10,983 bases of DNA from Candidatus Altimarinota bacterium (GTDB taxonomy: Bacteria; Patescibacteriota; Gracilibacteria; UBA1369; LOWO2-01-FULL-3), in NCBI GenBank assembly GCA_029939035.1, contig JAOZTS010000033.1, forward strand, positions 1 through 10,983, read 5' to 3'. A model generated the notes under the pieces. That model saw only the letters and a program-made list of their open reading frames with translations. It was not told the DNA's origin and made no database searches. A program made the position numbers and the translations under genes. This document shows, one piece after another, positions 905 to 10,317 of this stretch. Numbering within the stretch: position 1 is the stretch's first letter; each line of letters begins with the position of its first letter.

Positions 905-2371
905 TTATAATGGATCTCCGCATTCTGCTCTTACATCGTCTAATGAAACATAGATACCATTCCAAAATGTAACCTGCGGATAATCAGGAAATTCTGTGTC
1001 ACATGAAACTCCTATATCACCCCAAGCAGTATTATTTGTACCTTTGGACTCGATCGCTAAACATTTTCGTTCCATTGAAGCACATGCGTCACCTCCTGTA
1101 TTGAATGCCATAACAGATTTTAAACCAGAATTTGGTACTGTGACTGAGGCACCTGTTACACATGCGTATTTATCGCCGGCTCCAAAACTACATGGAGCAC
1201 AATATGCTCTGATATTTAGAGCATTCCCATTAAAATAAGACTCAGAAAAATCGTCATATACTGTTTCTACAGTTGGCGTGCATGAGTTGTACTTTGTTTC
1301 ATATTTCACACCATCTTTCTCCTTCACTTCAATAAAGGCACACGTATCTCCAGAATCGCAATCATACCCGAGTGTTGTCAAACAAACATGATATTTGTCT
1401 TCATCTGAGGCGGTGCAGTGATTTATCTTCTCTACAGCATCATCAGCTGCGTCATCTGCGTCGTCAGTATCGTCTCCGTCTGCTAACGTCATTCCATTCG
1501 CACCTATAACACCATTTGTTGCTAAAACTGCTTTTTCTTCACCCAATTTCAACCAAACCATATATTCACCTGCAGAAAAATCTGCGTCTTGGACTGCTCC
1601 GCTAACGATTGGTGCTTCTGTAAATGAATTCATATCTGCGCCGGTTTTGTAGAACACTTTTTCCACTCTGTCGGCAATGCGAGATGTGTTTAAATAGTCA
1701 GTCAATTGAGTTCCGTCTGATGTACCAACAAGCCCTATCCATCCGCTTGCAACAGTGTTATCGGCATCATAAATGTCGTTTACTGAGCCATATACATCAC
1801 CTTTATTAAATGGATTCTGAGGCGGTGCTAGGAAGCTAAGATCAAGGACAGGTTCTTCTTCTATTACATACGGCAGTGGTTCTTTTATGCTGTATATTTC
1901 TCCCATCTTTGTTGCGTCTTTTGATTTTATAATAAAAGTTGTATTCGCCAGTATGGTTAGATCATTTGTGTCACCTAATGTAGTAGTTTCGTTGTGAACA
2001 GCTTCTGGCCAACTGTAAAAAGTCTGCGTTTTTGGATCTTTGTACATAATTCTAATTTTGTTGAAAGGTTCACACTTTATTCTATCAACTATTTGTTTAA
2101 CGGTGAGATCTTCTCTTACATAATAATAATGCTCTCCTGAGCTCAAGGTAGTTTCTGCTAAGCCGCTATCTGGTGTACAAGTATCATCAGCCTCATATTG
2201 CTTATATCCTCCAGGATCGGTGAACATGCCCTTGAAAGTGCTTCCTCCAAATGATAGCTGAGGTGGTAGGTCATCTTTGTCCACTCTAGTCATTGTTGAA
2301 TAGACCAAGAATGCACCTCCCAGAACAGCAACTAGAATAATTGCCGAGATTAACATTTTTTTTCTATTCAT
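905..2371 (-). CDS. Membrane-anchored protein with two six-cysteine modules (paralogue of its upstream neighbour)
   Basis: A 488-residue protein built like its upstream neighbour but shorter. Residues 1-6 are basic and about 7-26 form the membrane helix. The juxtamembrane motif is LPPQLSFGGSTFKGMF (35-50). A first domain at about 55-155 has cysteines 65 and 100, and conserved words such as ETTLSSG, QIVDRI and YKDP. A second domain at about 186-278 contains SGWIGLVGTSDGTQ and EYMVWLKLG. A linker follows with an Asp/Ala-rich run (299-312). Two six-cysteine modules span C319-C391 and C394-C484, joined by RAYCAPC, which matches MAECSPC between modules 3 and 4 of the neighbour. The pair of genes therefore arose by duplication, with module gain or loss afterwards. 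Function is unknown; an exposed surface role is inferred from the anchor and the disulfide-type cysteines. It is probably the last gene of the operon; no convincing terminator follows, and the next promoter lies immediately downstream. Confidence 0.93.
   Translation of the reverse strand: MNRKKMLISAIILVAVLGGAFLVYSTMTRVDKDDLPPQLSFGGSTFKGMFTDPGGYKQYEADDTCTPDSGLAETTLSSGEHYYYVREDLTVKQIVDRIKCEPFNKIRIMYKDPKTQTFYSWPEAVHNETTTLGDTNDLTILANTTFIIKSKDATKMGEIYSIKEPLPYVIEEEPVLDLSFLAPPQNPFNKGDVYGSVNDIYDADNTVASGWIGLVGTSDGTQLTDYLNTSRIADRVEKVFYKTGADMNSFTEAPIVSGAVQDADFSAGEYMVWLKLGEEKAVLATNGVIGANGMTLADGDDTDDADDAADDAVEKINHCTASDEDKYHVCLTTLGYDCDSGDTCAFIEVKEKDGVKYETKYNSCTPTVETVYDDFSESYFNGNALNIRAYCAPCSFGAGDKYACVTGASVTVPNSGLKSVMAFNTGGDACASMERKCLAIESKGTNNTAWGDIGVSCDTEFPDYPQVTFWNGIYVSLDDVRAECGDPL
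920..1417 (-). repeat. Pair of six-cysteine modules (coding repeat)
   Basis: Modules lie at about 1417-1199 and 1192-920. Cysteine spacing in the first is 10, 7, 5, 19, 26 and in the second 9, 25, 6, 19, 26 residues. The short second gap in the first module and the long one in the second repeat the pattern of modules 3 and 4 of the upstream paralogue (8 and 26 residues), so the order of the pair is conserved. Confidence 0.78.
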
Positions 2372-2395
2372 ACTATTTGGATTATTATTTTATAT

Positions 2396-4312
2396 TTATT
2401 GGCATTCTGCTCTAATTATATAAGAGAAATGTGCAGCTCCATTTATTACAGCCATCCCACGAGCATCTGAGACAAAATCGTCACATTCAATTGATCCACT
2501 ACCTACTTCTACTCCAAGACCGTCAGACCATGTCGTTCCATGGTTAGTGCTTACTTGCAATTGATTACATGATAGTCCCATTGCTTCACATGCAAGATCT
2601 CCTTTTAGGTATGCCTGTTTAGACCAATAACCAGCGTTGTTTGTTAATATATCTTGATCGCTAGTAACGCATGCATGAGTGCTGTCTGCGAACCCACAAG
2701 GGCTACACTCAGCCATAATACTCCAATCGATTTCACTAACAAGGGAGTCGAAATAATCTCCTATTGGTCTATCGCATCCTCCTCCCATAAAATGATTCAC
2801 ATGATCATTATTTGGATAATTTTCATCTCTTACTCCTACAAATAGGCAAGTTCGACCTATGCTTGAACATGCATCATTTCCAGTGCTTTCCACACATTTA
2901 CTGTCATCGTCTTCGTAAGTTGCACTGCAGAAATTCACGTCTGCTTCGGGTAGCATATATCCTTCTACTTCAATTGGTGCTAACTGAAAACTGCTACAAA
3001 CTGCTCTAAAGGCCCAATTTTTTGTATATGCTATGTCCTTGTATTCGAAGTCTTGACCTTGGTCACTACACGATTCACCTGTTGATATCCAGCCTACTGC
3101 CTCTCCATCAATATTATGATTACTTGCTTCTATTCCTGTGCAGATAGCACATGCTTCGTCACCTGTTTGAAAGAATACGGCTGGGTTGTTTCCATCGGTT
3201 AAGCATGAGTGAGTTGCATCCTCTCCCCCACAAGTTGATAAATCTATCGTTTGTTCTCCGCAAACTGCTCTAAACACACGACTACTTGAGAATGTGGTCT
3301 CTGTACATGAGGACATTGAACCTCCCCATGATGGGGTTGGATCTTGGCCTTCAACGTTGTGAACACTTACTTCTACCCCGATACATGCATCTGTTCCACA
3401 GGCGTCTTCGCCTGTTTGGATAAATGTTGATGGGTAATTGCTGTCTGTTATGCATTTGTGAGTTGGATCATCTCCTCTACAAGTTGATAAATCTATCAAT
3501 ATTTCAGGCAATTCCACTCCTAATTTCAGCCAAACCATGTATTCTCCATCGCTGAAATCAACATCAGCTACTGCGCCGCTTGTGATTGTAACGTCTTGAA
3601 AATCGTCAGCGCCTGCTCCATTTTTTGAGAATACTTTTTCAACTCTACCTGCTATATCAGAGGTGTTTAGGTCGTCACTAAATTGAGTGCCATCCGTTGT
3701 TCCAACAATACCTACCCACCCACTTGTCATATCGTTTACAAATTCATATGGTCCTCCAGTATTGAAAGGATTTACTGGTGGTGACATAACTGGAGCTGGA
3801 GGTAAAGGTGTGTTCACATTATAGATCTCCCCCATTTTGGTTGAGTCCTTGGAGTCAATCATGAATACTGTATTTGCTTTTATAGTAAGACTAGTTGGAT
3901 CGGCCAGCTCTTCTGTTTCGTTGTGTGCTTTTTTTGGCCAACTATAAAATACTTGAGAAATTGGATCTTTGTATAAAATCCGCATTCTGTTTTGTGGCTC
4001 GCAGTCAATTCTATCTACAATTTCCTGAACAGTCAGATCCTCGGTTACATAGTAGTAATTTAGTCCTGAGCTAAGAGTGGTTTCTGTCAGACTTGTTGAA
4101 TGCTCGCAATTGTCTCCTGTTTCATATTGCCAATATCCTCCTGGATCTGCGAAATATCCTTTAAATGTAGATCCAGCTTCGTATGACAATGCTGGGAATG
4201 AGTCTTCGTCAACTTCTCCTTGGGAAAGATATACTATTACTCCAACTGCTAGTATCAATGCAACTCCTACATATGCAATTATCCATTTTTTGTTTTGTAA
4301 TTTATTTTTCAT
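2396..4312 (-). CDS. Membrane-anchored protein with four six-cysteine modules
   Basis: A 638-residue protein of no family I recognise. A basic N-terminus and one uncleaved helix (about 10-29) anchor it with the rest outside. Next comes the juxtamembrane motif FPALSYEAGSTFKGYF (39-54), a domain at about 60-155 with a probable C69-C104 disulfide, and a second domain at about 181-266 containing SGWVGIVG and YMVWLKLG. Residues 273-638 are four modules with exactly six cysteines each: C278-C351, C361-C439, C462-C536 and C539-C637. Recurring words are (T/S)(H/K)xC(V/I/L)T near the second cysteine, G(D/E)xAC at the third, and (F/I)(R/M)A(V/E)C at the sixth. All 26 cysteines are accounted for by this scheme. 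Disulfide-rich modules fit an exposed, stable surface protein, perhaps binding something (inference). The closest relative in view is the 488-residue protein 24 bases downstream, which has the same front end and two modules. No Shine-Dalgarno is seen before the ATG. Confidence 0.93.
   Translation of the reverse strand: MKNKLQNKKWIIAYVGVALILAVGVIVYLSQGEVDEDSFPALSYEAGSTFKGYFADPGGYWQYETGDNCEHSTSLTETTLSSGLNYYYVTEDLTVQEIVDRIDCEPQNRMRILYKDPISQVFYSWPKKAHNETEELADPTSLTIKANTVFMIDSKDSTKMGEIYNVNTPLPPAPVMSPPVNPFNTGGPYEFVNDMTSGWVGIVGTTDGTQFSDDLNTSDIAGRVEKVFSKNGAGADDFQDVTITSGAVADVDFSDGEYMVWLKLGVELPEILIDLSTCRGDDPTHKCITDSNYPSTFIQTGEDACGTDACIGVEVSVHNVEGQDPTPSWGGSMSSCTETTFSSSRVFRAVCGEQTIDLSTCGGEDATHSCLTDGNNPAVFFQTGDEACAICTGIEASNHNIDGEAVGWISTGESCSDQGQDFEYKDIAYTKNWAFRAVCSSFQLAPIEVEGYMLPEADVNFCSATYEDDDSKCVESTGNDACSSIGRTCLFVGVRDENYPNNDHVNHFMGGGCDRPIGDYFDSLVSEIDWSIMAECSPCGFADSTHACVTSDQDILTNNAGYWSKQAYLKGDLACEAMGLSCNQLQVSTNHGTTWSDGLGVEVGSGSIECDDFVSDARGMAVINGAAHFSYIIRAECQ
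2399..3496 (-). repeat. Array of four six-cysteine modules (coding repeat)
   Basis: Modules lie at about 3496-3260, 3247-2996, 2944-2705 and 2698-2399. The spacing is C-x(8-10)-C-x(8-26)-C-x(2-6)-C-x(23-27)-C-x(14-26)-C. Modules 1 and 2 are the most alike (both start IDLSTC and share an FIQTGE/FFQTGD word), suggesting a recent duplication; modules 3 and 4 are more diverged and match the two modules of the downstream paralogue. Confidence 0.8.
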
Positions 4313-4350: not shown

Positions 4351-4788
4351 TTATTTTTTTGACACCTTCTTGAATGCGTACCCAAGGATAAGACTTGGGA
4401 TTAGTAGCACTCCTGCTGCTGGACCAGTTTCAGAAATTCCACCTGTACTTCCTGGAGAACCACTTGTTCCTCCAGTTGTACCTGAACCTGTACCAGATGT
4501 TCCACCAGTGTCGTCATCGTCGTCTCCGTCAATTACAGGGAGATATCCTCCGCCTGTAGTTGCGCCAGATGAATCGTCGGCTGGCGTATCGTCAGCTGGT
4601 GTATCGTCAGCTGGTGTGTCACCTGCACCATCTAATGATGGCGGATCCGTATCATCATCATCTCCAATTGCTGGAGGGTCTGAGAACGGAGATGAGAGAC
4701 CAGGTGGCTCTGCTGCGAACGCAACGAATTGTGCTTGTAGCGCTACTATTGCAATTAAGAACAGTAGAGATAGTATTTTTGTTTTCAT
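4351..4788 (-). CDS. Small secreted low-complexity protein with sortase-signal-like C-terminus
   Basis: A 145-residue protein. Residues 1-26 form a classical Sec signal peptide (MKTK, a Leu/Ile/Ala core, cleavage near AFA-A-EPP). The mature part is almost entirely low-complexity: an Asp/Pro stretch, DTPADDTPADDTPADD (57-72), a poly-Asp run (about 88-93), then a Gly/Ser/Thr-rich stretch (94-118). The C-terminus is SETGP (119-123), a hydrophobic segment of about 15 residues (124-138) and a lysine tail KKVSKK. This order, motif then hydrophobic stretch then positive tail, is that of LPXTG-type cell-wall sorting signals, with ETGP in place of LPXTG. The flexible Gly/Ser/Thr part would suit a wall-spanning stalk. 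It could equally be a plain C-terminal membrane anchor; no sortase is in the window. It is the second gene of the probable operon, 27 bases after the 1004-residue gene. Overall function is unknown. Confidence 0.85.
   Translation of the reverse strand: MKTKILSLLFLIAIVALQAQFVAFAAEPPGLSSPFSDPPAIGDDDDTDPPSLDGAGDTPADDTPADDTPADDSSGATTGGGYLPVIDGDDDDDTGGTSGTGSGTTGGTSGSPGSTGGISETGPAAGVLLIPSLILGYAFKKVSKK
4574..4618 (-). repeat. Three tandem 15-bp repeats coding for DDTPA
   Basis: Units at 4574-4588, 4589-4603 and 4604-4618 (plus-strand form tcgtcagctggtgta) differ by only one or two bases each. They encode the pentapeptide repeat in the 145-residue secreted protein. The near-identity suggests recent slippage, and copy changes would stay in frame. 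Confidence 0.85.
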
Positions 4789-4815: not shown

Positions 4816-7800
4816 TTAATACTGAGTAGTCAGGGTCGAATCTATTGATACCCAACTACCGTACATGCCATTAATATTTGCAGACACAGCTAGAACTGCA
4901 TCTAATATAGCTGCAGCATCTAGCGTTCCTAGCTCAGCTATGATGAGCGAACGAACAACTCCTGTGAGTGTAGCAGTATTTGAAAGACCCATAAGGTCGT
5001 TATATAGACCCATAAGGTCCTCCATTGCTTGAAGATCAATACTAACCTCAGCATCAAGATTAGCTAGTTCAGCTGCAGCGATTATAGCTTCTGCGTTATT
5101 TTTTATCTTTTCTCCTTGTGCTTCTCTTAGAGCAACAAATGCCTCAACAGCAAATTTTATATCTTCCACAATAAATGCTAGTCCAGCGTCCACATTTGCT
5201 TTTATGGTTTCAAGCTGAGCTAATGTAGATTCTGTATTGTCGTTTCTTAGACTATCTACAGCAGTAGCAGCACCATCAATAGTAAAACTATCAGTATTAG
5301 CACCATCGGCAGGAGAAAATCGATCAAATGCAGAGTTTGCATATTCAATAACAGCTATATACAAAGAGGCATCTTGGTGAGAATCATTATAAAGAGTCCC
5401 TTCGAAATAGAACCTATTTTCATTATTAAACTCAGTTAAATCAATTAAAACATTCTGTAACAAATCCCTGAGTTCATAAGCATATGCAATTGATCCATCA
5501 ATCTCATTGATGATCGCTGTGTGAGCAGATCCATCTGCTTTACACTCTCCGGCTTCATTAAGGCTAAATCCTGAATCACATCCTAATTCATTTCCTCCAG
5601 CTACTGCTCTTTCTGCCCCAAGTGGAACACAAGTTGCTCTGAATTCAGGTGTGGCGTCTCCTGTGTTTGTGAATAAGTATGTCTGAACGATTCTTTTTGC
5701 ATTGTTAGCGTCTGTGTTATTTGAGAATTCTTCCTTTAGGAGGTCTGAAAAATCGATTTCTTCTATGATATCTCCTGTACCATCTCCATCACTGTCCAGG
5801 TCGATATAGGCGAAGAAGATTTTTTCTCTAACTCCTTCATCCATCATTAGTACATAATCTTTCACTCCATCTGGGTCTGTACATTCCTGTACTGATCCAA
5901 ACTCATTAAAGTTACCAATCATCTGTGAATCAGGATTGAAATTAAGAGGCTGATATCCCACAGTGTCCAAAGTGTGCTGTTGATCAGTCACATCAAATCC
6001 TAAACCATTTCCTAAAATCACATATTCGTGAAGTGCATCATAAAAGTGATCGATTAATCCATCAGATACATATGCTTGAAATATTGGAACCAATGCGTCT
6101 AGAAAACCTGCTACTGCTGATGCTTTTACGCCTTCTGAAACTGTAGCGCCTACTAGTCCATCCACAAAAATCTGTTTCTTTGCGTCATCGAGATAATCAA
6201 AGTCTCCTCTGTAGCAACCATCTGCATCTGTAATTAGAGTAACATCTAATTCCAAAAACTGATCACCTTGTAAGAATGAATCTGTTCCGATCATTCCATC
6301 ATTTTTTGCTAATACTTTTACGTTTCTTTTGTCATTTAGCAGATCAGTAACATTGAACTCTAATTCGTTTAATATTACGTTTCGTGTATCGTTTATATTA
6401 GTTTCAGCTACTACGAATGCTGGGTTTACTGCTGCCCAGTTTGAGATATCATTTACTAAGTATTCTAGTAATTCATCTACCTCAAGTAGATAGTTTTCGA
6501 TTTCCACTCCGCTTTCACTCATATCTTTCACACTTGCAGAAACTCCTCCAATTGTATTAGTTAAACTTGATAAATATAGTTTTGTGTTTACAGAATAGTC
6601 ATCGTACCATGTATCAATACCTATTAGTGCAGGAATTGAAGGCTCTAGCGTAACAGCTATTAACGTCAATAGGTCCTTGTTATTTACAATTGTATTAAGG
6701 GGTCCTGAAAGTTGTTCTAGGGCTCCTGCTAATTCGTTGATTGCAAGTCCATCATTTGCATATTGTATAGCTGCATACATTTCTCCCACCAATGATCTGT
6801 CAACATCAGCTAGCAAACCGTACACATCGTAACTTTTTAGGTTACCGACTGATTGTGCAAATGCATCATAGTAATCTTCTTCTGTAGTTGCACAAATATA
6901 TGGTGGCAAAGTTTCTACTGGATCTGGATCTGGATCTGGGGTTGTAGCAACTATTACTGGATCATTTTCATAATATACCCATCCAACAGTTGGAGCGGTG
7001 ATTTCAGAAAGTGATAAAACTTCGTTATATATGAATCCTTTTTGCAAGTCTGTCATTTCTGCCTCAGGAACCATCATATATACATTTGTTGGTACACATT
7101 CTTCTAGTCTTTTAGCAACATCTGGAGTTAACATTGTTAGTGTCCATCCTTCTTTTGCAGTTGTACATGGATCATAAGATTCTGTTGAAGTGTATGCTTC
7201 TACTCCTGGTAAGAATATGTGATCGTTATATATGTCTATTTTGTTTGATGTAATGATCACTCCAACTTCAAATGGGTCAAAGACAATGTCTCCCCATGTA
7301 GCGTCGTCAGTGTGAATTATTGCAGCATCTGAACCGTAATAATCTTCTGGAGTTAGGATGTATCCTTTTCCATCATAATATGCCAAGGCACCTGGATCGA
7401 CATTAGAAATGTCCCAGCTTGCTGGTGGTGTCTTAAATGCAACGAGTGCTATTTCTCCAATTGTTGATGGATCAATACTCTTCATAACGTCATCAAAAGA
7501 CATTGCTATATCAGAGTAAAATGGAACTAGTCCAATTCTTCTGTTAGTGTAATCAGCTTGTACAAGTTTTTCACTTTTCACTGTATCATCCCAGTTATCA
7601 ATATCTAGTTGAGTTGGGCTCATAAGTGATCCAGCTTCTTTTATGAATCCTTGATAGAGAGAATCGCTTGCTCCTAGAGAAGGAGGCGTAGCTTGATCTT
7701 GTCCAAAGACGAAGTAATATACTCCACCGAATACTAGTGCTACCGCAAAAACAGCAGCAAAAATTGCCTTCATTTTAGAAGGTTTTCCAGAAGCGTTTTT

Positions 7801-7830
7801 AGCTTCAGGGTTTACATCCATGTTTTCCAT
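4816..7830 (-). CDS. Large membrane-anchored ectodomain protein of unknown function
   Basis: A 1004-residue protein with a short basic N-terminus, one uncleaved membrane helix (about 21-43) and a long outside region. I do not recognise the family. Just outside the membrane is TPPSL...SLYQGFIKEAG (49-67), matching the two cysteine-rich proteins downstream. Two similar domains follow at about 90-201 and 217-296, each beginning with a GL/GW-type strand and ending in a hydrophobic G-V-x-(I/Y) strand. An acidic-proline linker TPDPDPDPVET (297-307) leads to a mostly helical region (310-500). A mixed region contains IDLDSDGDGTGD (676-687), a likely calcium loop, and CDSGFSLNEAGEC (751-763), which resembles the end of an EGF-like domain. 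The C-terminal 235 residues are helical and Ala/Leu/Asp-rich, possibly coiled coil. There are eight cysteines, at about 222, 245, 313, 539, 650, 734, 751 and 763. It is the first gene of its probable operon and has an A-rich leader without a Shine-Dalgarno. Confidence 0.92.
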   Translation of the reverse strand: MENMDVNPEAKNASGKPSKMKAIFAAVFAVALVFGGVYYFVFGQDQATPPSLGASDSLYQGFIKEAGSLMSPTQLDIDNWDDTVKSEKLVQADYTNRRIGLVPFYSDIAMSFDDVMKSIDPSTIGEIALVAFKTPPASWDISNVDPGALAYYDGKGYILTPEDYYGSDAAIIHTDDATWGDIVFDPFEVGVIITSNKIDIYNDHIFLPGVEAYTSTESYDPCTTAKEGWTLTMLTPDVAKRLEECVPTNVYMMVPEAEMTDLQKGFIYNEVLSLSEITAPTVGWVYYENDPVIVATTPDPDPDPVETLPPYICATTEEDYYDAFAQSVGNLKSYDVYGLLADVDRSLVGEMYAAIQYANDGLAINELAGALEQLSGPLNTIVNNKDLLTLIAVTLEPSIPALIGIDTWYDDYSVNTKLYLSSLTNTIGGVSASVKDMSESGVEIENYLLEVDELLEYLVNDISNWAAVNPAFVVAETNINDTRNVILNELEFNVTDLLNDKRNVKVLAKNDGMIGTDSFLQGDQFLELDVTLITDADGCYRGDFDYLDDAKKQIFVDGLVGATVSEGVKASAVAGFLDALVPIFQAYVSDGLIDHFYDALHEYVILGNGLGFDVTDQQHTLDTVGYQPLNFNPDSQMIGNFNEFGSVQECTDPDGVKDYVLMMDEGVREKIFFAYIDLDSDGDGTGDIIEEIDFSDLLKEEFSNNTDANNAKRIVQTYLFTNTGDATPEFRATCVPLGAERAVAGGNELGCDSGFSLNEAGECKADGSAHTAIINEIDGSIAYAYELRDLLQNVLIDLTEFNNENRFYFEGTLYNDSHQDASLYIAVIEYANSAFDRFSPADGANTDSFTIDGAATAVDSLRNDNTESTLAQLETIKANVDAGLAFIVEDIKFAVEAFVALREAQGEKIKNNAEAIIAAAELANLDAEVSIDLQAMEDLMGLYNDLMGLSNTATLTGVVRSLIIAELGTLDAAAILDAVLAVSANINGMYGSWVSIDSTLTTQY
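6924..6944 (-). repeat. Short (Asp-Pro) hexamer repeat
   Basis: About three copies of the 6-bp unit ggatct (plus-strand reading) encode the DPDPDP linker between the paired N-terminal domains and the helical region of the 1004-residue protein. The same hexamer, expanded to eight units, occurs in the left-edge gene. Gain or loss of a unit keeps the frame and only changes linker length. Confidence 0.55.
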
Positions 7831-7938: not shown

Positions 7939-10317
7939 TTATTCCTTAGTTACTGTAATTGTAACTTCAGCTTTTGAGATGTTGTTTTCGGCATCAGAAA
8001 CTTCTAGAGAAGCTGAGTAACTACCTGTGTCTGAATAGACATGAGAAGGTTTTACGTCAGTAGAGGTACTTCCGTCACCAAAATCCCAGAAATAGCTAGA
8101 AATTGTGCCTGTAGCGCATCCAGGATCGAATGATGTCTCCAATGGAGCCGGTCCTTCTTCGAACACTGATACGAAACATGCTTCTAGTGGTATTTCTCGC
8201 ACTGTAATGAGGATTTCATCTGTTTCCATGCTACCATCTGCGCCTACAACTGTAACTTTGGCTGTATATGTGCCAATTGAAGTGTATTTGTGTGTAATTG
8301 AGGCCGTACCGATCTTTGGGCTGGTGCTGTCACCAAAATCCCATTGATAACTGGTGATCTGCCCTTCGTCGTATGAAGAGCCGCTAGCGTCGAATTCAAC
8401 AGTTAGAGGAATGTTTCCTTCTATTCTGTCGGCTTCGATGACTGCTTCGATTCCTTTTGGCAGTACTTTAATTGCGATGCTTTCAGTACCGACATTTCCA
8501 TTTGCATCAATAACAGTAAGTTTTGTTGTATATGTGCCGTCATTTAGGAAGGTGTAAGCGGTTGTTTCTCCATATTCTTGTACTTCTCCGTCTCCATTAA
8601 AATCCCATTCGTAATCTACGATATTGTTGTCGCTGTCAGTTGTTCCTGAAGCATCGAATGTTACTTTTAGCGGAACTGTTCCTTCTACCCAACCAAGTCC
8701 TTCTTCTGCTACTGGAGTTGTGCTTATAACTGGTTTTGGTGTTCCTTGTGGAGCTCCGATAGTGATCACCATTGATGTTTCACCCTCGTTGTCTTCTTCG
8801 TCAGTTACTTTAAGAGTGACTTCGTATGTTCCTGAATTTAGGAAAACGTGTGAGACTGATTTTGTGTTTTCTGTTGGTGTTCCGTCTTTGAAATCCCATT
8901 CATAGCTTTCTATATCTCCTGTTGGAGCCGTAGACTCGTCTCCTTTAAACACGTAGTTTAAGCCGGAAATGAATGTTTCAGGTTCACCTACCACTGTAAT
9001 TACAGCTTCTGGTTCTTTTGCTTCTTCTACTACTATTTCTTTTTCGCTAATTTCGAAATCTCCGATAGTTGATGTAACCCTGAGGGAAACAGTGTATCTG
9101 CCAATTTTGTCGAATTCATATTCTGCTGTGACTCCTTCTGCGTCGTCAAATTCTCCATCTTCATCGAAATCCCATTCGTAGGTATCAATTGTTCCATCTG
9201 GATCTACTGATTCGCTAGCATCAAATTCTACTTCTAACGGAGCTTCTCCTGATTGAGGAGTTGCTGTAAATGTAGCTGTTAATGCTTGGTCTGCGACACT
9301 TACCGTCACACCGTATTCTGCTGGCAATTCTTCGCCAGTTTTCTTGTCCTGGAGTGTTACCTCGAGGATAACGTCGAATTTCCCTTTCTTTTCAAACCTG
9401 TGTGAAATGATTTGTCCTGTTCCCTCTTCTCCATCTCCAAAATCCCATTCGTAGAAAATTATTTTGTATTTTGACGAATCTACTGGGAGATTTGATGCAT
9501 CGAATTTTATTTCTATTGGGGCTTTTAAATTAATAGTATCCTCTGGTTCTGTGACAATCGGATCAGTGAGCTCTGGGGCTACGCTGATTCTCTTTCCGTC
9601 CAGATACGCATAGGCAAAAACCCATATTATAAGGATGAAAATGAGTACTACTCCCGAAATTAGTGCGCTTTTTAGGCCCTGTTTCTTTGCAAATTTGTCG
9701 TCTTTTTTCGCCATACTGGCCTTGAATAGGCCAACCATTGTAAATGTGAATGCAACTAACGCCACGAGGATAAATACGACGTGGATTAGCGTGATCAGGC
9801 TGTTTACGAATGAAGCTTCGTTTACGCCCATAAGCTGTGCTATTGGACTTTCCCCTTCGCCAGTTTGACCAACAAAAACGAAGGCTAATACGATGAATAT
9901 AATCGAAATTGCTCCAAATCCTCCTAAACATCCAAGAATTGCTTTTCTTCGAGCTTCTGGGTTTGCAACTTTCTTTGTTCCAGGTTTTACAACTGCTTGA
10001 GCAGGTGCTGAACCTATTTTTACTTGTCCTATGGTTTTACCTTCGACTTTTGGAGCTTCAGGTTTTGCAGGTTCTGGCTGTGGTTCAGGTTGCGCTGGTG
10101 CCTCCGGTTTTGGTGGCACAATGTCCTGCTCTGCTTTTGGAGCTTCTGGAGCCTCTGCATGTGGATTGACCTCAGGTTTTGTCTCCTGTGAAGGTTTAGT
10201 GTCTTCTGGTTTCTTAATATCGTTCATGTAGTTGTTAATCTTTGGAGTTTCTTCTTCTGGCGCGCTGCCCATTTCTAAATCTTCCGGAATATTTTTAGGA
10301 TCATTTTGGTCATCCAT
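7939..10317 (-). CDS. Three-helix membrane protein with Pro/Glu-rich cytoplasmic tail and six PKD domains
   Basis: The 792-residue protein has three parts. Residues 1-125 are hydrophilic and rich in Pro, Glu, Ala and Lys (repeated PEAP and KPEAP words at about 55-90). Three membrane helices follow at about 127-150, 171-198 and 215-238. RRK before helix 1 and a Lys-rich loop (about 199-216) between helices 2 and 3 place the N-tail and that loop inside and the remainder outside. Residues 247-790 form six PKD domains, with the WDF motif at about 291, 382, 474, 571, 659 and 744 and each ending in a GxYxxxLxVxD-type strand. Domains 2 and 4 have an acidic DxDGE-type loop directly after WDF, probably calcium-binding. 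The last domain has two cysteines (714 and 734) well placed for a disulfide. PKD arrays are typical of extracellular stalks and adhesins. The three-helix base is unusual for a simple anchor and suggests a complex partner or signal across the membrane (inference). No Shine-Dalgarno precedes the ATG. It follows the truncated PKD gene by 11 bases. Confidence 0.93.
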   Translation of the reverse strand: MDDQNDPKNIPEDLEMGSAPEEETPKINNYMNDIKKPEDTKPSQETKPEVNPHAEAPEAPKAEQDIVPPKPEAPAQPEPQPEPAKPEAPKVEGKTIGQVKIGSAPAQAVVKPGTKKVANPEARRKAILGCLGGFGAISIIFIVLAFVFVGQTGEGESPIAQLMGVNEASFVNSLITLIHVVFILVALVAFTFTMVGLFKASMAKKDDKFAKKQGLKSALISGVVLIFILIIWVFAYAYLDGKRISVAPELTDPIVTEPEDTINLKAPIEIKFDASNLPVDSSKYKIIFYEWDFGDGEEGTGQIISHRFEKKGKFDVILEVTLQDKKTGEELPAEYGVTVSVADQALTATFTATPQSGEAPLEVEFDASESVDPDGTIDTYEWDFDEDGEFDDAEGVTAEYEFDKIGRYTVSLRVTSTIGDFEISEKEIVVEEAKEPEAVITVVGEPETFISGLNYVFKGDESTAPTGDIESYEWDFKDGTPTENTKSVSHVFLNSGTYEVTLKVTDEEDNEGETSMVITIGAPQGTPKPVISTTPVAEEGLGWVEGTVPLKVTFDASGTTDSDNNIVDYEWDFNGDGEVQEYGETTAYTFLNDGTYTTKLTVIDANGNVGTESIAIKVLPKGIEAVIEADRIEGNIPLTVEFDASGSSYDEGQITSYQWDFGDSTSPKIGTASITHKYTSIGTYTAKVTVVGADGSMETDEILITVREIPLEACFVSVFEEGPAPLETSFDPGCATGTISSYFWDFGDGSTSTDVKPSHVYSDTGSYSASLEVSDAENNISKAEVTITVTKE

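Follow-up and report, generated by a model that had tools for sequence, protein, structure and literature searches.

We found a six-cysteine module that is repeated four times in one protein (B) and twice in its neighbor (A) in a contig from a Candidatus Altimarinota bacterium. With a probability of about 0.6, we read it as an undescribed, disulfide-stabilised binding or adhesion module at the tip of surface proteins of the candidate phyla radiation (CPR) type, diversified by divergence and shuffling. The window analysed is the entire contig (G000:C104, 10,983 bases), which belongs to a genome of 1.1 Mb in 133 contigs, 89% complete.

Both proteins are encoded on the minus strand, as are all features of the window given below. 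Protein B (638 amino acids, 2396-4312) has an N-terminal membrane helix and a conserved stalk, together residues 1-274 (3491-4312), followed by its four modules at the C-terminal end. These are module 1 (C278-C351, 3260-3481), module 2 (C361-C439, 2996-3232), module 3 (C462-C536, 2705-2929) and module 4 (C539-C637, 2402-2698), the last lying at the C-terminus of the protein. Protein A (488 amino acids, 905-2371) has an N-terminal membrane helix by eye, a conserved stalk and an Asp-rich linker ahead of its two C-terminal modules, module 1 (C319-C391, 1199-1417) and module 2 (C394-C484, 920-1192). Measured from their outermost cysteines, the six modules together extend over 920-3481. The stalks of A and B are 57% identical over 270 columns, and a low-confidence full-length model of B places its helix at residues 5-30.

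A sequence-only reading of the window had proposed this arrangement, and the counts bear it out, with 26 cysteines in B and 14 in A. All six modules fit the order it claimed, C-x(8-10)-C-x(7-26)-C-x(2-6)-C-x(19-27)-C-x(14-26)-C. The residues between successive cysteines number 10,7,5,19,26 and 9,25,6,19,26 in modules 1 and 2 of A, and 8,17,4,25,14; 8,17,2,23,23; 10,8,6,23,22; and 8,26,6,27,26 in modules 1 to 4 of B. Likewise, a single N-terminal pair per protein (A65/A100 and B69/B104, the latter within the stalk) accounts for every cysteine outside the modules. The shared word R-A-x-C at the sixth cysteine, which that reading also noted, holds in five of the six modules; B module 3 reads M-A-E-C.

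The modules resemble each other in more than their cysteines. By BLASTP, modules 1-2 of A align with modules 3-4 of B at E 1.6e-11 to 1.7e-11. We then used a leave-one-protein-out test on 22 modules from eight proteins, in which each module was scored by a profile built without its own protein and compared with 100 shuffles of itself that kept the cysteines fixed. All 22 scored higher than the best of their own shuffles. The B modules reached 53.8, 83.6, 40.0 and 49.6 bits against shuffle maxima of 14.5, 11.1, 8.1 and 10.1, and A module 2 reached 45.9 against 10.6. The weakest were P0006 module 1 (11.4 against 8.1) and A module 1 (14.9 against 8.5), the latter being the weakest of the six in the window. 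The score of module 1 of G251, a second genome of the same genus, is inflated by its close relative P0004, which was kept in the training set; the test of P0004 also excluded the two-module G251 protein, and the four modules of P0007, discovered later, lie outside the test. Judged from sequence, the likeness of the modules is homology that goes beyond cysteine spacing.

The full collection comprises 26 modules from nine proteins: A, B, P0002, P0003, P0004, P0006, P0007 and two from G251. In a 17-row alignment all six cysteines are invariant, as are G27, the glycine before C3, and A80, the alanine two residues before C6. With 26 rows C3, C4, C5 and C6 stay invariant, and C1, C2, G27 and A80 are conserved in at least 90%. 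A tree of the modules had 2 starred branches among its 19 inner ones and was too weakly supported to be used.

The suggestion that the module is perhaps an undescribed domain was supported, since sequence searches found no shared known family. Searches of Pfam, NCBIfam and PDB with sequences and profiles gave no match to the modules above chance level; against PDB sequences, module profiles returned nothing in one search and two matches at E 7.5 in another. At E up to 1, Pfam scans of whole A and B and of 14 of the 26 modules (the six in the window and eight from relatives) gave no row for EGF, TSP1, WSC or Kazal and no family common to the 14. EGF, TSP1, WSC and Kazal domains are, as are the modules, small, disulfide-rich, extracellular and repeated. 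The rows that did fall on modules were YL1_C (0.023) and BNR (0.025), weak and in one member each, and, in the whole-protein Pfam and NCBIfam scans, a BNR row on B at E 0.64 and a phenol 2-monooxygenase row on A at E 0.092, which scored 11 bits where the cut-off is 560. We rejected all three as the identity of the module, the rows being isolated or far under cut-off. No published description was found in a literature search covering the titles and starts of the abstracts that were listed. After these searches, and the structure searches described below, the module stands as an undescribed domain, the basis of a new domain family whose kind is familiar and whose distribution is narrow.

A search of 5.8 billion proteins found at least five relatives besides A and B (P0002, P0003, P0004; P0006; P0007). 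The homologue lists give lower bounds, as P0003 is missing from the list of its own query and P0001-P0004 from another list. Complete carriers measure 479 to 728 amino acids, and in those of the B/A type an N-terminal membrane helix and stalk lead to an array of two to five modules, placed at the C-terminus or close to it. P0002 and the G251 protein of this type are fragments. Across carriers the number of modules ranges from one to five. In G251, a single module stands at the end of a fibronectin-III protein, whose neighbors are a small protein and an N-terminal fragment of a B-like one. The module is thus apparently a mobile unit that occurs on two or more kinds of carrier.

We searched 353 genomes of the class with the module profile, and at E up to 0.01 only the window's own genome and G251 matched. 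A third genome of the genus, 76% complete, had no match. At E up to 1, 11 of the 353 matched, two strongly (these same two) and nine weakly. Eight of the nine weak matches were called chance: L033 belongs to another kind of cysteine-rich repeat, L027 runs antisense to a frame named DnaB-like by eye, L030 falls within a short repeat frame, and the other five (L026, L028, L029, L031 and L032) lie in frames shorter than 50 amino acids. In a sample of the phylum at E up to 0.1, 5 of 379 genomes matched, including the window's own. There, L013 (E 6.7e-4), a membrane-anchored protein of 320 amino acids, was judged unrelated as it shares only the C3-C4 word and has no cysteine at C5, and L014-L016 contain stops within the matched stretch. 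Protein B had no match among phages and plasmids at E up to 0.01, and an alignment of four modules had none among viral contigs.

Absence of uL30 is a trait of CPR bacteria. We found uL30 in none of the 30 genomes of the family (17 of them near-complete) and in 13 of 14 controls, which places the host with the CPR, or Patescibacteria, by this trait. A record titled Nitrospirota CSMAG_680 (L021) is G251, the two agreeing in contig numbers, positions and scores. Since G251 and its family are without uL30, the Nitrospirota title is probably wrong.

Every one of the 26 modules has an even number of cysteines: 20 have six, five have eight and one has four. In all five eight-cysteine modules the extra cysteine 4a follows C4 by six residues and its partner 5a precedes C6 by five, and neither ever occurs singly; if they were independent, such a coincidence would have a chance of 1.5e-5. 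Conversely, P0006 module 2, with four cysteines, is without both C1 and C2. Because these cysteines were gained together in five modules and lost together in one, the pattern points to disulfides 1-2 and 4a-5a as the simplest map. A different view of the same residues is that they bind metal or carry out redox chemistry and form no structural disulfides. The spacing C3-x2-C4, which resembles a metal knuckle, occurs in 4 of 22 modules (B module 2 and module 1 of P0002, P0004 and G251), but the C3-C4 spacing ranges from 2 to 8, cysteines at distant positions are gained and lost in pairs, and the proteins look extracytoplasmic. We consider this view very improbable.

The genome has two DsbA-like matches. 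One is intact (L034, 237 amino acids), with an N-terminal hydrophobic stretch and a CPYC motif. The second (L035, about 1501-2016) carries one in-frame stop in the assembly.

We modeled B module 2 with AlphaFold2 using 17 module rows, which gave a predicted local distance difference test score (pLDDT) of 78.3 and a predicted template modeling score (pTM) of 0.71. In the model a strand around C2 and a second, short one are followed by a short helix ahead of C3 (27-30), a strand from C4 (34-40) and a last strand to C6 (77-82). The extra cysteines fall at positions 41 and 76, adjoining the end of strand 34-40 and the start of strand 77-82, and in the model this placement is what a cross-strand bond would need. 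Compared with solved and viral structures, the model had no significant fold match; being middling in quality and small, it is weak ground for claiming a new fold.

The PAN/apple fold has a helix packed on a five-stranded sheet and a first-to-last disulfide. The helix-then-strand order around C3-C4 is PAN-like, so that the module might be a known disulfide domain of this or another kind, diverged beyond recognition by sequence profiles. Coagulation factor XI, which carries apple domains, appeared at rank 19 (E 2.0) in a search with the poor full-length model. Against this, the module has no sequence match to PAN/apple domains, whose profiles are not among the Pfam rows for A, B or the modules scanned, its moderately confident model has no significant fold match to them, and the putative 1-2 bond would misfit that fold. 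A far-diverged known domain seems improbable to us.

The stalks of the carriers are far steadier than their modules. The helix and stalk of B are 82% identical to those of P0006 over 274 columns. In blocks of 40 residues, identity runs at 62-90% along the stalk and drops sharply to 25-40% at the module border, and the best single module pair between B and P0006, among the best matches listed, reaches 43%. In P0007 the first part of the stalk is 86% identical to P0003 and 52% to P0006, yet its modules 3 and 4 match modules of P0006 at 65% and 58% identity. P0007 thus looks like a mosaic. Since a single tree explains this pattern poorly, exchange or conversion of segments among carriers is likely.

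These comparisons bear on the main rival to our reading, a purely structural coat, in which the module would be a rigid disulfide bead of a surface coat or fibre with PKD and immunoglobulin-type neighbors. The modules are tandem repeats and are encoded with PKD and Big_5 proteins, as such a bead might be, and rigidity and/or attachment has been suggested for the large, cysteine-rich extracellular proteins reported for Peribacteria (PMC4736985). Beads, though, would be expected to be conserved at least as well as the stalk, and we see the opposite; the range of one to five modules also speaks against a bead. We regard the structural explanation as rather unlikely.

According to our preferred reading, that of a binding or adhesion module, each unit would be a small domain outside the cell, about 75-105 residues long and held by three disulfides (two to four in variants). 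One to five of them would stand at the C-terminal end of a protein anchored in the cell membrane by its single N-terminal helix, with the stalk placing the array at a distance from the cell. The modules would act as rigid units that contact another surface, varying in sequence and number from gene to gene on a steadier stalk. The ligand may be, as a guess, the surface of another microbe, which would fit a small-genome, CPR-like cell. We infer the surface location of A and B from their one N-terminal membrane helix and their PKD and Big_5 neighbors; surface exposure of the modules, the disulfides as such and ligand binding are likewise what we infer. A contact role is suggested by the place of the modules at the protein end, by their variability and by the neighbors, all of which fit it.

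Such a role would agree with a published proposal that other cysteine-rich surface proteins of CPR bacteria serve in attachment (PMC4736985). Candidatus Peribacter is reported there to have large, cysteine-rich extracellular proteins averaging 1,655 amino acids. By description alone they are like the proteins studied here in being exported and cysteine-rich, in having small-genome CPR-type hosts and in the attachment proposed for them. Also by description they are set apart by that average length, compared with six-cysteine modules of about 75-105 residues on carriers of 479-728 amino acids.

Several of our results weigh against this reading. Strong matches to the family occur in only 2 of 353 class genomes, and the module is therefore not a general CPR attachment device. 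The even cysteine counts follow in part from module borders that we set ourselves, and the 89% identity between two of the five modules with eight cysteines leaves fewer independent events. VKOR was not found in the window's genome (89% complete), so re-oxidation of DsbA is unexplained. High divergence of the modules can equally result from weak constraint. Finally, the module model is moderately confident (pLDDT 78.3) and the full-length model poor (58.5, pTM 0.27), and the models thus provide no fold argument for binding.

Among the nine weak class matches, the only plausible exported relative is L025 (700-1716, minus strand), which was chosen as the best of many weak matches. It belongs to a family of secreted-looking, cysteine-rich proteins (with L036-L041) that 5 of the 353 genomes of the class encode. 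The L025 member had no match in Pfam or NCBIfam. The family shares with the module the word TG-x-E-x-C-x6-C, followed by two cysteines at the places of C5 and C6, but it is without the C1-C2 part, and C4 is phenylalanine in two of five members. The first link came from the module profile at E 0.0045, where about 1.6 such matches are expected by chance in 353 genomes, and in the reverse search with the L025 profile A module 2 came up only at E 0.097, in row 18 of the list. A local comparison of the two profiles over 26 columns gave probabilities of 88.7% one way and 78.2% the other, against maxima of 4.7% and 1.7% in column-shuffled controls (100 per direction); with the global option it gave 2.3%. 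The kinship is suggestive at the level of these profiles. In a more specific and only tentative version of our reading, A and B would be stalk-and-tip adhesins of an episymbiont, with modules as cassettes on a constant stalk that are exchanged between genes and strains; the set of modules would choose the host cell, and the module itself would be a wider CPR fold (L025-type) with an added C1-C2 hairpin.

The main genes of the window run in one direction. In order of transcription they encode a fragment with a PKD match, a 792-amino-acid protein, a 1004-amino-acid protein, a 145-amino-acid protein, B, A and a Big_5 protein that is truncated at the window end. Because the intergenic gaps are only about 10-110 bases, the genes look like a single surface-protein cluster. 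A promoter and terminator scan was uninformative (27 and 7 sites compared with 29.0 and 7.6 in shuffles). The 792-amino-acid protein (7939-10317) starts with a Pro/Glu-rich region and has six PKD stretches and, by eye, membrane segments. The 1004-amino-acid protein (4816-7830) is without any Pfam match, and its N-terminal part looks by eye like the stalks of A and B; the fibronectin-III module protein occupies the counterpart position in G251. The low-complexity 145-amino-acid protein (4351-4788) has an Asp-rich middle and a C-terminal tail of ETG, a hydrophobic stretch and Lys that by eye resembles a wall-sorting signal, and its position is conserved in G251 (L012, 608-1042). The full Big_5 neighbor in G251 (L021, 1051-2160) ends in a hydrophobic stretch and RKKK, which again looks like a sorting signal by eye.

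The generality of these findings is limited by the narrow distribution of the family, which covers one genus among the class genomes searched and at least five metagenome proteins. The module would add a domain family to the catalogues. It is appealing as a small, expressible, disulfide-rich domain, with variable tips on a conserved stalk. The module also provides a concrete, testable candidate for the way in which CPR-type bacteria recognize other cells.

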